From NCBI RefSeq assembly GCF_002970935.1, contig NZ_CP027194.1, positions 2,294,001-2,358,000 on the forward strand: a stretch of DNA of 64,000 nt, read 5' to 3'. Positions 3,122 to 27,585 of this stretch are shown here, piece after piece (the first letter of the stretch is position 1; every line of letters starts with the position of its first letter). The notes beneath the pieces are model-generated. The model worked only from the letters and a program-made list of their open reading frames with translations. It did no database searches and had not been told where the DNA came from. Made by a program: the position numbers and the translations under genes. Origin of the DNA: Lactobacillus sp. CBA3606 (GTDB taxonomy: Bacteria > Bacillota > Bacilli > Lactobacillales > Lactobacillaceae).

Positions 3122-3745
3122 TTAAAATAACTTTAAAAGATCAGTTGGTTGGTCAAAACGGTAAGTCGTTCGTTGATGGTTAGCATGGGGGTCCATCCCC
3201 CAGACTGCTAAGCCAAAGTCGACATTAGCGGCGGCCGCGGTCTGTTCATCGCTTAAAGAATCACCGATAAAGAGGGCCTTACTTGGTTGTACGTTTACTT
3301 TTTGTAGGGCCGTTAACAATGGTAATGGGTCGGGCTTGCGTTTGGGGGTATCGTCAGCGCTGATGGTGACGGCCATCCGTGACATGAACGTATAAGGCTG
3401 CATGCCAGCTTCGAGTTCGGTGCGGCGTTGCGAGGTCACGATACCTAGTTTTAGGTTAGCTGGCAATTGTGCCATGAGGGTGGTAATCCCAGGATAAAGG
3501 GCAATCTCATGGTAGTGCGCCGCCATCACTGCTTCGTAACGGGCTTGAAAGTGGTCGAAATCTGTGGCAGCAATCCCAAGGTGCGCCATTGCTTGTTCCG
3601 CAGCCATTGGAAACGTGGTTTGCGCGTCGCTGGCTGAAAAAGGTTTTTGATATTCAGTTAATACTTGGTGCATGACAGTCGCATAAACTGGCTGGCTGTT
3701 AGTTAGGGTACCGTCAATATCAAACATTAAAGCCTGATAAGTCAT
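3122..3745 (-). CDS. HAD-family phosphatase (phosphoglycolate phosphatase-like)
   Basis: This 207-residue haloacid-dehalogenase-type hydrolase has the nucleophile motif DIDGTLTNS (Asp9, Asp11), a helical cap, motif II Ser/Thr in VTSQRR, Lys in PKRKPDPLP and motif IV IGDSLSDEQTAA. It would hydrolyse a small phosphomonoester or pyrophosphate in the cytosol. The sequence resembles the Pgp/PpaX branch but substrate is not determinable. ATG 3745 follows an AAAGGACG ribosome binding site. It is divergently transcribed from the attenuated transaminase operon and shares the intergenic region with its promoter. Confidence 0.85.
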   Translation of the reverse strand: MTYQALMFDIDGTLTNSQPVYATVMHQVLTEYQKPFSASDAQTTFPMAAEQAMAHLGIAATDFDHFQARYEAVMAAHYHEIALYPGITTLMAQLPANLKLGIVTSQRRTELEAGMQPYTFMSRMAVTISADDTPKRKPDPLPLLTALQKVNVQPSKALFIGDSLSDEQTAAAANVDFGLAVWGMDPHANHQRTTYRFDQPTDLLKLF

Positions 3746-3796: not shown

Positions 3797-3825
3797 TTGA
3801 CAGTGATTCTTCGGATTGTTATAGT
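3797..3825 (+). promoter_or_regulatory. Sigma-A promoter of the transaminase operon
   Basis: TTGACA at 3797-3802 and TATAGT at 3820-3825 with a 17-base spacer give a near-consensus promoter. It predicts a transcript start near 3832 and an untranslated leader of about 340 bases before the aminotransferase. Confidence 0.8.
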
Positions 3826-3855
3826 TAGATTAATAAATGATGAGGAGCTAATGAT

Positions 3856-3918
3856 ATGTCATTACTATTGAACCACTCAAAAACTCAAACTAGTTTTTAC
3901 TTTTGGTATTTTCGCTAG
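3856..3918 (+). CDS. Leader peptide rich in aromatic codons (attenuator)
   Basis: A 20-codon ORF, MSLLLNHSKTQTSFYFWYFR, begins 24 bases after the predicted transcript start. A GAGGAG ribosome binding site lies 8-9 bases before its ATG. Codons 14-19 are TTT TAC TTT TGG TAT TTT, that is Phe-Tyr-Phe-Trp-Tyr-Phe, followed by CGC and TAG. Such a run is very unlikely by chance and lies upstream of an aromatic-type aminotransferase. I infer a regulatory leader peptide: ribosomes stall here when charged Phe, Tyr or Trp tRNA is scarce. Nothing suggests a function for the peptide itself. Confidence 0.75.
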   Translation: MSLLLNHSKTQTSFYFWYFR

Positions 3919-4103
3919 TGTTTGTGCCCGCAGTATAGGTGCAAACACGAATCTGATGTTTGCATCGATGCGGCTTGCCAAGAGCTTTTTGAGGTTCAAT
4001 GGCACCCATGGATGATTAAAATTCCAAGGGTGGCTAAAATAAAAAACGCTTTGATTGTTTGGCGTCGCCCGGAGAATTATTTTCTCGAGGACGACGTTTT
4101 TTT
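3919..4103 (+). promoter_or_regulatory. Attenuator with alternative hairpins in the transaminase leader
   Basis: Directly after the leader-peptide stop, 3919-3928 can pair with 3938-3947 (10 bp, two G-U pairs). The same 3940-3947 can instead pair perfectly with 3957-3964 (TGCAAACA/TGTTTGCA), so the two hairpins exclude each other. Further stems are 3976-3980 with 4000-4004 and 4003-4012 with 4023-4033 (CACCC-A-TGGA/TCCA-A-GGGTG). A terminator ends the region. No T-box sequence, S-box or lysine-riboswitch core was seen. A 76-codon frame crossing this region has no ribosome binding site and I do not call it a gene. Confidence 0.65.
4063..4103 (+). terminator. Leader terminator of the transaminase operon
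   Basis: CGTCG (4063-4067) pairs with CGACG (4092-4096) and GAGAA (4072-4076) with TTCTC (4082-4086), followed by seven T residues. It lies 72 bases before the aminotransferase start. An ACGC/GCGT pairing from 4046 to 4065 would compete with it. Confidence 0.7.
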
Positions 4104-4174
4104 GTTGGTATTGAGAGATTGGTTAATCATTCGGGAACCCCAAACCAATTAAATAGTCTAGGAGGAACCAATCT

Positions 4175-5374
4175 ATGTCAATTGAAAGTAAAGTTTTAGT
4201 TCAACGGATGAATCATCAGCTTGATGCCATCCAACCATCTGACATCTTAGCCTTTAACGCTGAAATTGCCAATATTCCGGGAATTATTCGGCTAACCTTA
4301 GGTGAACCTGATTTTAATACGCCTGAACATGTGAAAGCAGCTGCGATTAAAAGTATTGAAGATAATGAAAGCCACTATGCCCCTTCAAATGGGACGCTAG
4401 CTTTGCGGACCGCAGCGGCTAATTTTTTGGCGGCTAAATATGATGTGCATTACGATCCAGCTGATGAGGTCATTATTACGGCCGGGGCCACCGGTGGGAT
4501 TTACACGGCTTTGAGCTCAATCTTAAATCCCGGCGATGAAGTTTTAATTCCAACGCCAATTTTTCCGCTCTACATTGCGATTGCTAAGCTTAATGGGGCC
4601 GTTCCAGTTTTCATGGATACTTCTGATAATGGGTTTGTGTTATCACCAGCCCAACTTAGCGCGACTTTAGCGGCCCATCCGAAGGCCAAAGCCGTTGTCT
4701 TGAATTTCCCCTCAAATCCGACGGGGGTCACTTATCGGCAAGCAGATTTAAAGGCATTAGCGGCGGTTTTAGCGGACAAACCGGTCTTTGTGCTAGCTGA
4801 CGAAATTTATAGTGAACTGACTTATGGTGCGGCGCACGTGTCCATTGCCCATTACTTACCTGAGCAGACAATTCTCCTTAATGGGGTGTCCAAGTCGCAC
4901 GCCATGACCGGCTGGCGGATAGGAATTATGTGCGCCCCTAAAGTGATTACGGCTCAATTGGGAAAAATTCACCAATTCACGGTGACAACAACGACTGCTA
5001 ATGCGCAAGCAGCGGCGACTGAAGCATTGAATCATGGGCGTGATGATGCCCAAGTGATGAAAGCCGAATATCAGGCGCGGCGTGATTTCTTATTAACCAG
5101 TTTGAACCAACTAGGTTTCAAATCGGCGAAGCCAGAAGGGGCTTTCTACCTCTTTAGTAAGATTCCGGCTGGTTTGCCACAAGTTAGCATGGCTTTTTGT
5201 CGAGAACTGGCGCAGGAAGCCCGGGTTGCCTTGATTCCAGGGAGTTCATTTGGCCCCGGTGGTGAAGGCTATGTGCGGATTAGCTATGCGGCTTCAATGG
5301 CGGATTTACAGACGGCGGTGCAACGAATTGGGGCATATGTTGCGAATAAAGCGAAACAAGTGGAGGACAACTAA
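4175..5374 (+). CDS. Class I/II PLP aminotransferase, aromatic type
   Basis: The 399-residue fold-type I enzyme contains NFPSNPTGVTY around residue 185 and the PLP-lysine motif GVSKSHAMTGWRIG near residue 240, close to PatA/AraT transaminases. It would transfer the amino group of an aromatic (or similar) amino acid to 2-oxoglutarate in the cytosol. Ribosome binding site AGGAGG precedes ATG 4175. It overlaps by one base with a 2-hydroxyacid dehydrogenase gene, so amino acid to keto acid to hydroxy acid (for example phenyllactate) is a plausible joint pathway. The upstream leader with six aromatic codons supports aromatic substrates. The exact specificity is inferred, not shown. Confidence 0.85.
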   Translation: MSIESKVLVQRMNHQLDAIQPSDILAFNAEIANIPGIIRLTLGEPDFNTPEHVKAAAIKSIEDNESHYAPSNGTLALRTAAANFLAAKYDVHYDPADEVIITAGATGGIYTALSSILNPGDEVLIPTPIFPLYIAIAKLNGAVPVFMDTSDNGFVLSPAQLSATLAAHPKAKAVVLNFPSNPTGVTYRQADLKALAAVLADKPVFVLADEIYSELTYGAAHVSIAHYLPEQTILLNGVSKSHAMTGWRIGIMCAPKVITAQLGKIHQFTVTTTTANAQAAATEALNHGRDDAQVMKAEYQARRDFLLTSLNQLGFKSAKPEGAFYLFSKIPAGLPQVSMAFCRELAQEARVALIPGSSFGPGGEGYVRISYAASMADLQTAVQRIGAYVANKAKQVEDN

Positions 5375-6366
5375 TGAAAATTTTAATGTATAGCGTACGT
5401 GATGATGAAGAAAATGCGATTAAGGCTTGGGCGACTAAAAATAAGGTTCAAGTAGATACTAATGCGTTAGAATTTCATCCAGACACGGCTCAGTTGGTGC
5501 ACGGTTACGATGGCGTTGTGATCCAACAACGCAGTGCAATTGGTGGCGATGCCACATTCTATCAGCAACTTGCAGCTGCTGGATTGACCCAATTAACCAG
5601 TCGTACGGCGGGGGTTGATACAATTGATCTGCCAGCTGCAAAGGCAGCTGGTTTGACGGTGACGAATGTGCCAGCTTATTCGCCCAATTCAGTGGCTGAA
5701 ATGGCAGTGACCCAAACGATGCGATTAATTCGAAATTTAGAGTTATTTGATAGTCGCATTAGTCAGCAGAACTTCCAATGGGCTGGTTTACAAGCCCGTG
5801 AGATTCGATCATTGACGGTCGGTATTATTGGCGCTGGTCGAATTGGGGGGACTGTTGCAAAGTTATTCCATGGTCTGGGCGCTAAAGTGATTGCTTATGA
5901 TGTGGTTCGACATGCGGACTTAGAATCCGTTTTGACTTATGTCGATAGTAAAGAAGCGTTGTTGCAACAAGCCGACGTCGTGACGTTACATGTCGACCTC
6001 AATGCGACCTCCAAAGCTTTGATTGATGCGGCTGCGCTGAAACTAATGAAGCCGGATGCCTTTATCATCAATGCATCCCGAGGGCCCGTCATTGTGACGG
6101 CGGCATTAGTGGCCGCCTTAAAGGCTGGTGAAATTGCCGGAGCGGCGTTAGATACGGTTGAAGGTGAAGCGGCTTTATTTAACCAGAATCACCAAGGCGA
6201 AGTGTTACAAGATCCGTTAATTGCCCAATTAATGCAAATGCCTAATGTTATTTTAACGCCGCATGTTGGCTTTTATACGAATCTAGCTGTTCAAAATATG
6301 GTGGAGATTAGTCTGAACGATGTGGTGACCATTCTTAATGGTGGGCAAACTGAGCACGCTTGCTAA
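5374..6366 (+). CDS. D-2-hydroxyacid dehydrogenase (D-LDH/HicDH type)
   Basis: The 330-residue NAD-dependent dehydrogenase has the Rossmann motif GIIGAGRIGG near residue 150, substrate/catalytic Arg in NASRGPVIV and the catalytic His in ILTPHVGFYT near residue 297. Family members reduce 2-keto acids to D-2-hydroxy acids, regenerating NAD in the cytosol. Coupled by TAATG overlap to the aminotransferase, it likely reduces the keto acids that enzyme makes (phenylpyruvate, hydroxyphenylpyruvate or branched-chain keto acids). A strong terminator follows, so the operon has two genes and shares the attenuated leader. Confidence 0.88.
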   Translation: MKILMYSVRDDEENAIKAWATKNKVQVDTNALEFHPDTAQLVHGYDGVVIQQRSAIGGDATFYQQLAAAGLTQLTSRTAGVDTIDLPAAKAAGLTVTNVPAYSPNSVAEMAVTQTMRLIRNLELFDSRISQQNFQWAGLQAREIRSLTVGIIGAGRIGGTVAKLFHGLGAKVIAYDVVRHADLESVLTYVDSKEALLQQADVVTLHVDLNATSKALIDAAALKLMKPDAFIINASRGPVIVTAALVAALKAGEIAGAALDTVEGEAALFNQNHQGEVLQDPLIAQLMQMPNVILTPHVGFYTNLAVQNMVEISLNDVVTILNGGQTEHAC

Positions 6367-27211: not shown

Positions 27212-27585
27212 AATTAGCCTCCTTTCGCTGGAAGCTAGACCGTATATCTTAGCTTCCATATTAACAGGATTGGGGAATAAGTGCAGCTCAATTGTGTCGG
27301 AAAACTTGCTACCCAGTTCCGTCACTAACGGACATAGGAATTTCACCTCTCCTGCTTACGTGGGAGCCTCGCGGAAGTATCATTATTGACTTAACTTGTA
27401 CGATCATCAGTTAAAAATCGTAATCAAAGTGTGGGAGGCGCTCGCACTTCTGGTCATGGCGTCCGCAGATCAACAGTTCAAGTAAAGTCAGAAAGTCAGG
27501 GTAGCAATATTCAGTTTTCAAAGGACTCACAGGTGTTATTGCCTGCTCACTATATACATACAGATAAAAATAGAAAATGAAACCC
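27212..27585. other. Non-coding region between recombination module and ars cargo
   Basis: Nearly 500 bases (27212-27699) lack a supported gene. Directly upstream of the DUF3173 start is an 8-bp hairpin GGAAGCTA/TAGCTTCC (27230-27257). Further GC-rich repeats around 27335-27460 (for example GTGGGAGGCGCTCGCAC) could form hairpins and may be regulatory or recombination sites. Their role is not visible. Confidence 0.45.

Follow-up and report, generated by a model that had tools for sequence, protein, structure and literature searches.

The leader locus

The window, a 64,000-nucleotide stretch of the genome of Lactobacillus sp. CBA3606, carries near its start a gene pair encoding an aminotransferase and a D-2-hydroxyacid dehydrogenase, preceded by a promoter and a short open reading frame (ORF) that ends in a run of aromatic codons. 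Counted from the first nucleotide of the window, these features are as follows.

3797–3825, + strand: sigma-70-type promoter, TTGACA-17-TATAGT; both hexamers invariant in a 21-genome alignment
3842–3847, + strand: leader ribosome-binding site, GAGGAG; invariant in the same alignment
3856–3918, + strand: leader peptide ORF of 20 codons, MSLLLNHSKTQTSFYFWYFR, with the stop codon TAG at 3916–3918
3895–3912, + strand: aromatic run Phe-Tyr-Phe-Trp-Tyr-Phe (codons 14–19), followed by Arg and the stop codon
4175–5374, + strand: class I/II PLP-dependent aminotransferase (PF00155; best NCBIfam model PRK07309)
5374–6366, + strand: D-isomer specific 2-hydroxyacid dehydrogenase (D-lactate dehydrogenase group)

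A preliminary description of this DNA had placed a consensus promoter ahead of a well-signalled 20-codon ORF with aromatic codons 14–19, and both readings hold. The promoter is an 11/12 match to consensus with a TG before the second hexamer; since a scan returned four promoter-like sites against 5.5 in shuffles, i.e. no excess, its weight rests on its conservation. The ribosome-binding site lies 8 nt ahead of the ATG at 3856. Gene pairs of the type found downstream are makers of phenyllactate and indolelactate, compounds that have drawn interest in food preservation and in gut biology. The aminotransferase scores 550.9 bits against the PRK07309 equivalog model, below the curated cutoff of 576, and its relatives in the PDB include 4my5, a putative amino acid aminotransferase, and 1dju, an aromatic aminotransferase.

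Divergent from the leader promoter lies a gene for a HAD-family hydrolase (3122–3745, − strand). Elsewhere in the window, at 27332–27386 on the − strand, there is a match to the pemK RNA, a described cis-regulatory RNA (RF02913, 48.7 bits).

In the window's genus, Lactiplantibacillus, leader DNA was matched in 21 of 21 genomes, in 19 of which the match ends short of the terminator, and SFYFWYFR with TAG after it is encoded in every one of the 21. In their alignment, little or no variation is seen in the two promoter hexamers, the ribosome-binding site, the run of aromatic codons or the first three RNA arms described below; the codons ahead of SFYFWYFR differ in sequence and by one in number, and the terminator changes in sequence but not in shape. 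A search of named genomes with the leader pattern returned 15 stretches, 14 from Lactiplantibacillus species, including L. plantarum, and one from the metagenome-assembled genome of an uncultured Lactobacillus.

Distribution across the Lactobacillaceae

The leader occurs more widely than the preliminary description had it, in much of the family Lactobacillaceae. A search with the aminotransferase gave a match in 297 of 301 genomes of the family, and the 110 best loci (30 plus 80) were read; these are high-scoring matches, at least 56% identical, among the matches listed, rather than a random sample of the family. Eight of the 118 listed places fall outside the set that was read, four with the leader pattern and four without. 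A fixed criterion, comprising an ORF of 7–45 codons, at least five aromatic residues in six and a Shine-Dalgarno-like site, identified a leader at 60 of 80 aminotransferase loci and at 0 of 80 on the reverse strand, which, together with the conservation of the leader, speaks against chance.

A leader-like ORF lies ahead of the aminotransferase at 94 of the 110 loci (88 by the fixed criterion and six by eye), in 17 of 20 genera. The first labelling had given 89, namely those 88 and G128 by eye, and a second look at 13 of the 21 loci first labelled leaderless added five more divergent leaders. The preliminary description had named relatives that keep the downstream genes and lose the ORF or its aromatic codons as the finding that would speak against it, and at most loci both are retained. 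No leader was found at the remaining 16 (the second g3 copy, five; g22, three; g15, three; g10, two; g27, two; g17, one), eight of which carry their first labelling; at L093 and L098 of g27, 700 nt upstream were read, and a leader further up would be missed. L124, from g17, has no recognisable leader at its aminotransferase, unlike its close relatives. In a protein tree of 97 of the 110-locus aminotransferases, leaders are found on most branches, and in four g25 genomes the motif lies 193–196 nt upstream of the aminotransferase, as judged by coordinates.

The dehydrogenase adjoins the aminotransferase at 82 of the 110 loci, 79 of them with a leader, the other three being those of g15. Fifteen leader loci have no dehydrogenase within the DNA read, some of them at contig ends, which suggests that the leader goes primarily with the aminotransferase. 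Outside the family, aminotransferase homologues were present in all 44 genomes searched from other families of the order, and the 30 loci read there gave no convincing leader and no adjoining dehydrogenase (three weak ORFs in two loci were judged to be chance, and one locus had only 171 nt upstream).

The aromatic run, with the start and stop codons, was expected to be conserved across Lactiplantibacillus genomes with synonymous changes only. Start, stop and run are kept among the leaders, with synonymous codon changes in the run, but Trp is not universal: at run position 4 it is replaced by Arg, Lys, Tyr or Leu in 16 of 67 leaders, and Phe and Tyr interchange at positions 1 and 5. Positions 3 and 6 are constant in 67 of 67 by construction, being fixed in the search expression, and the criteria demanded most of the run. 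A second leader type, FYFYF(A/T)W, with arms matched by eye, accounts for four of the 89 first-labelled leaders; a search for it in 295 genomes of the order gave two matches, neither leader-like by frame.

Leaders of several genera (among L083–L162) have Gln-Leu-Asn a few residues ahead of the run, a stretch that could reflect ancestry, RNA or tunnel contacts. In L035 (G128), whose aminotransferase is 83% identical, the run has drifted to Phe-Ala-Leu-Trp-Tyr-Phe, and the codon arm described below still pairs downstream. At L037, from g27, a PTS_EIIC_2 gene (PF13303, L037:434–1477) stands between a second-type leader and the aminotransferase-dehydrogenase pair, and its product is possibly a transporter for an aromatic compound.

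Pattern matches in g4 (TTCTATTTTTGGTTTTTT) were rejected as leaders: L062–L064 have no leader-like ORF, and the gene downstream of them is presumably rpoB, while the other g4 loci (L065–L069, L072 and L075) have the same short frame, ending FYFWFFFA. The other matches among L051–L082 at a distance from the aminotransferase were assessed by their open frames. The leader pattern as such occurs in 152 of 301 genomes, a figure that includes the g4 matches and so overstates the number of leaders.

Amino-acid control in lactobacilli is attributed for the most part to T-boxes and DNA-binding regulators, and the CBA3606 genome has 27 T-box matches, nine of them above the Rfam cutoff, as would suit an ordinary structured 5′ untranslated region or T-box in which the short ORF is incidental. 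Such a reading is scarcely credible here, as an Rfam scan of the window gave no family at gathering score at the leader site, none of the 27 T-box matches falls there (C1:2297780–2298180), and 17 genera retain the ORF, its ribosome-binding site and the aromatic run in spite of changes in the sequence of the RNA.

A relay of alternative hairpins

Between the aromatic run and the aminotransferase gene, the leader RNA can be divided into arms that pair in alternative combinations, the first of them lying inside the run itself.

3900–3907, + strand: arm A (CTTTTGGT), part of the codon run, with arm B as its partner
3918–3928, + strand: arm 1; pairs with arm 2, and would be covered by a ribosome that has reached the stop codon
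3938–3948, + strand: arm 2; pairs with arm 1 or arm 3
3957–3979, + strand: arm 3; pairs with arm 2 (through 3957–3966) or arm 4 (through 3963–3979)
3977–3984, + strand: arm B (GCCAAGAG); pairs with arm A and overlaps the end of arm 3
4001–4014, + strand: arm 4; pairs with arm 3 or arm 5
4022–4034, + strand: arm 5; alternative partners are arm 4 and, in the antiterminator, arm 6
4061–4076, + strand: arm 6; forms the 5′ side of the intrinsic terminator, or else joins arm 5 in the antiterminator
4081–4103, + strand: arm 7; 3′ side of the terminator, with the U tract

Two mutually exclusive hairpins had been proposed previously, and they recur near the same places (3918–3928 with 3938–3948, and 3938–3947 with 3957–3966), as does a terminator claimed at 4063–4103: the segment 4062–4103 folds at −18.4 kcal/mol, and is absent from the results of a simple terminator scan of the window. 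The proposed reading as an attenuator is likewise supported, with the amendment that the relay has more arms (4001–4014 and 4022–4034) and begins inside the codon run. As a whole, the RNA at 3919–4104 (186 nt) has a better fold than any of 200 dinucleotide shuffles (z = −3.99), and the seven successive pairings in the window (A:B, then 1:2 to 6:7) have energies of −11.1 to −18.5 kcal/mol, matched by 0–26 of 1000 shuffles.

Four alignments were used to follow these pairings: A1, from the window's genus; A2, with 29 sequences from five genera (29 of 32 kept, L101, L105 and L126 having been left out ahead of counting); A3, with 13 g17 sequences; and A4, from g31. In A1, paired cells number 231 of 231 for 1:2 (invariant), 210 of 210 for 2:3 and 272 of 273 for 3:4 (both nearly invariant), and 188 of 189 for 4:5, where one pair varies between A-U, G-U and G-C; these counts cover 1:2 to 4:5, and 5:6 rests on folding of the window. 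Near-invariance of arms 1–5 is expected if each has two partners, but it is still not covariation, so pairing within the genus rests on conservation with one compensated pair.

A shorter form of the relay is found in g5, g12, g13, g14, g17 and g21, with five arms after the run, in which 1:2 and 3:4 exclude 2:3 and 4:5, and 4:5 is itself the terminator. The longer form, in the window's genus and g31, has two additional arms. With arm columns picked on the same alignments, which favours the percentages paired, the terminated fold is paired in 97.2% of cells in A2, 98.8% in A3 and 91.8% in A4, and the readthrough fold in 96.0% in A2 and 87.2% in A3; one sub-helix of each A4 fold is paired in only 63% of cells, and slid versions of the arms reach at most 58% in A2, A3 and A4.

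The preliminary description had also anticipated that helix pairs would covary. They do so in both folds of A2 and A3 and in the terminated fold of A4, measured against shuffles that sequence relatedness alone can beat: covariation is 0.425 against 0.203 for the A2 terminated fold (seven pairs changed on both sides, 61 such cells), 0.202 against 0.148 for the A2 readthrough fold (17 such cells), 0.240 against 0.188 and 0.214 against 0.167 for the terminated and readthrough folds of A3, and 0.160 against 0.082 for the A4 terminated fold, with 0 of 500 shuffles reaching the observed value in each case. The A4 readthrough fold barely covaries (0.051 against 0.046 in shuffles, one slid version giving 0.067). 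Counts of further pair types were reached by 119, 447 and 500 of 500 shuffles for the readthrough folds of A2, A3 and A4, respectively, and by 229 of 500 for the A4 terminated fold; counts of pairs changed on both sides were reached by 61 of 500 for the A2 terminated fold and by 90 of 500 for the A4 readthrough fold.

The codon run as an RNA arm

Pairing of the aromatic codons with downstream RNA was absent from the preliminary description. In the window, the A:B duplex has an energy of −11.1 kcal/mol, and 0 of 1000 shuffles are as low. More generally, the stretch C-TTT-TGG-T of the run pairs with a GCCAAAAG-like sequence about 10 or about 56 nt past the stop codon, and where codon 4 of the run is swapped the partner often follows: AAG occurs with ACTTAAAG, CGT with AACGAAAG, CGC with AGCGAAAG and TTG with GCAAAGAG.

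This correspondence was assessed by swapping codon 4 in silico, a locus passing when its own codon ranked among the best five of 61 for pairing with its own downstream RNA. All 21 loci within the genus pass, their sequences being nearly alike, as do 48 of 69 outside it; by residue, the latter are Trp 38 of 52, Lys 5 of 5, Arg 4 of 6, Leu 1 of 1 and Tyr 0 of 5. When the RNA of another genus was supplied, the own codon was in the top five in 18% of 370 draws, a control that comes from an earlier run than the 48 of 69 and in which L035 was one base out of frame. The test failed in g31 (0 of 13), in g12 (0 of 4), largely in g3 (1 of 3) and in all five Tyr leaders. The match between codon 4 and its downstream arm indicates that the run is tied into the RNA switch, as in the classic attenuators.

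A T-box apparently in place of the leader

The three g15 loci (L163, L164 and L165) have no leader, and in all three a T-box match lies upstream of the aminotransferase. At gathering score these loci have no Rfam match; the T-box appears at a relaxed threshold, where the three score 78.3, 75.1 and 72.8 bits (gathering score, 93) with E-values of 4e-16 to 3e-15. In the longer loci, L163 and L164, the T-box stands just before trpS (named in L164 by TIGR00233), which directly precedes the aminotransferase, and the L164 alignment has UGG at what we take to be the specifier position. A plain loss of control in g15 was considered and rejected, given the T-box match in each of the three loci, and the T-box apparently stands in for the peptide leader. 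T-boxes answer to uncharged tRNA, switching genes on and controlling a terminator, and the substitution thus points to shortage as the inducing signal.

These observations bear on whether the leader might sense excess, a nascent aromatic peptide arresting the ribosome when a free aromatic amino acid or derivative is in surplus, in the manner of TnaC. An aminotransferase together with a D-hydroxyacid dehydrogenase would ordinarily suggest catabolism, and the two families found here by profile would suit such a sensor, as would the Gln-Leu-Asn stretch ahead of the run, which resembles what conserved tunnel residues might look like. Fixed contacts with the tunnel are, however, hard to square with a fourth run residue that may be Trp, Tyr, Arg, Lys or Leu and with Phe and Tyr swapping at positions 1 and 5; codon 4 is moreover tied to RNA pairing, and the system that replaces the leader in g15 is one that answers to uncharged tRNA. 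An excess sensor is accordingly judged unlikely.

Ribosome position and the predicted direction of the response

The effect of ribosome position was computed by folding the transcript as far as the first arm of the terminator, with pairing forbidden under a ribosome placed at each codon, at footprints of 9, 12 and 15. At footprint 12, a ribosome on codons 1–5 of the run favours 1:2 and the antiterminator in A2 and A3, and one at the stop codon favours 2:3: the mean number of antiterminator pairs is 7.8–8.4 with codons 1–5 in the A site against 2.7 at the stop in A2, and 4.3–5.0 against 0.2 in A3. Over all three footprints, codons 1–4 give means of 6.3–8.4 against 2.3–2.9 at the stop in A2, and 3.0–5.0 against 0.0–2.3 in A3. 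With no ribosome, A3 is wholly in the terminating fold and A2 is mixed. A reading with arms only after the stop codon, which predicts readthrough without translation, is contradicted by this result in g17, and it was through this contradiction that the arm inside the codon run was recognised.

In A1, the computed switch is nearly flat at footprint 12, with mean antiterminator pairs of 4.4–5.8 over all states (codons 1 and 3, 4.5; Trp, 5.8, the highest; stop, 4.5; no ribosome, 4.7) and medians of 2.5 at codon 1, 3.3 at codon 3, 5.8 at Trp, 2.1 at the stop and 4.4 with no ribosome. For a long relay that forms as it is transcribed, nested folding at equilibrium may give poor guidance.

The sign of the switch could in principle be reversed, with a stalled ribosome covering arm 1 and causing termination, such that a catabolic operon would be off in starvation. 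A ribosome on the last codons of the run does cover part of arm 1, the A2 antiterminator drops at codon 6 with a footprint of 12 and from codon 5 with a footprint of 15, and the computed switch in the window's genus is too weak to fix the sign. Set against this, codons 1–4 keep the antiterminator in A2 and A3 at all three footprints, and the T-box stand-in of g15 suggests that shortage means on; the reversed sign is considered very unlikely. Mask folding in A2 and A3 and the g15 T-box together favour induction of the genes by aromatic shortage.

The leader is predicted, with considerable confidence, to be a ribosome-mediated transcription attenuator, in which translation of the leader very probably decides, via the alternative hairpins, whether transcription continues. 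RNA polymerase would make the leader with a ribosome following; we infer that this ribosome, when charged tRNA is short for Phe, Tyr or, where it is coded, Trp, stops within the codon run. There it would cover arm A, which could then no longer pair with B, and leave arm 1 free, so that 1:2 and 3:4 would form, and the antiterminator (5:6 in the window, 3:4 in the shorter versions) would capture the 5′ arm of the terminator and allow transcription of the aminotransferase and dehydrogenase genes. When amino acids are plentiful, the ribosome would reach the stop codon and cover arm 1, leading to 2:3 and 4:5 and to the terminator (6:7, or 4:5 in the short versions). In the absence of translation, A:B would form, and the readthrough fold is then predicted to be blocked in g17 and, in part, elsewhere.

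Induction by shortage is a non-obvious logic for genes usually read as catabolic, and this counts against the attenuator as proposed. A fuller reading, which taken jointly we consider somewhat better than an even proposition, is of a Lactobacillaceae-specific, pan-aromatic attenuator in which the sensed codons would be a co-evolving arm followed by five to seven further arms, the gene pair would serve salvage under shortage and not catabolism alone, and g15 would have exchanged the leader for a Trp T-box via linkage to trpS; as part of the same reading, the amino acid at run position 4 would be free to change mostly if the RNA follows. The model predicts that aromatic amino acids in the medium lower transcription of the gene pair.

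Comparison with known systems

Several known systems share parts of this arrangement. The TnaC-type arrest peptides (PMC8429421) also combine a short leader peptide, ribosome stalling and an aromatic ligand, and are reported to sense free tryptophan, whereas the fourth position of the present run varies among loci. Histidine leader-peptide attenuators are described from the Bacillus cereus group and other Firmicutes (PMC2965389, PMC9413887), and are alike in placing repeated-codon leader peptides in Gram-positives where the T-box is usual; they differ in concerning histidine and the his genes, with the Lactobacillales there having T-boxes. The words aromatic, aminotransferase and phenylalanine are absent from the main text of PMC2965389. 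Branched-chain leader peptides of Staphylococcus aureus and Listeria (PMC5794164, PMC5864092) similarly represent leader-peptide control of amino acid genes in Firmicutes and reportedly concern branched-chain amino acids, other targets and other clades. PMC8632094 deals with other upstream-ORF motifs. A published report of the present leader element was not found among the entries listed from the literature searched, which covered few subscription papers.

Among tRNA-responsive systems, the T-box (RF00230) likewise senses a shortage of aminoacyl-tRNA and controls a terminator, and lies upstream of the same aminotransferase in g15; it differs in binding tRNA directly without a leader ORF, and no T-box match occurs at the window site. 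A leader attenuator retained in much of one family, with an apparent exchange for a T-box, would amount to a natural experiment on the replacement of one sensing system by another.

There is a likeness, too, to the enterobacterial trp, pheA and pheST attenuators, which similarly consist of a short ORF rich in the sensed codons, a codon run that doubles as the first RNA arm, an alternative antiterminator and an intrinsic terminator. The present element differs from these in its clade, in its mixed Phe/Tyr/Trp run and in its aminotransferase-hydroxyacid dehydrogenase target, and, where the trp leader has four arms, it has five to seven in addition to the codon arm and its partner. Within the literature searched, it is new in its target, its mix of amino acids, its clade and the length of its relay.
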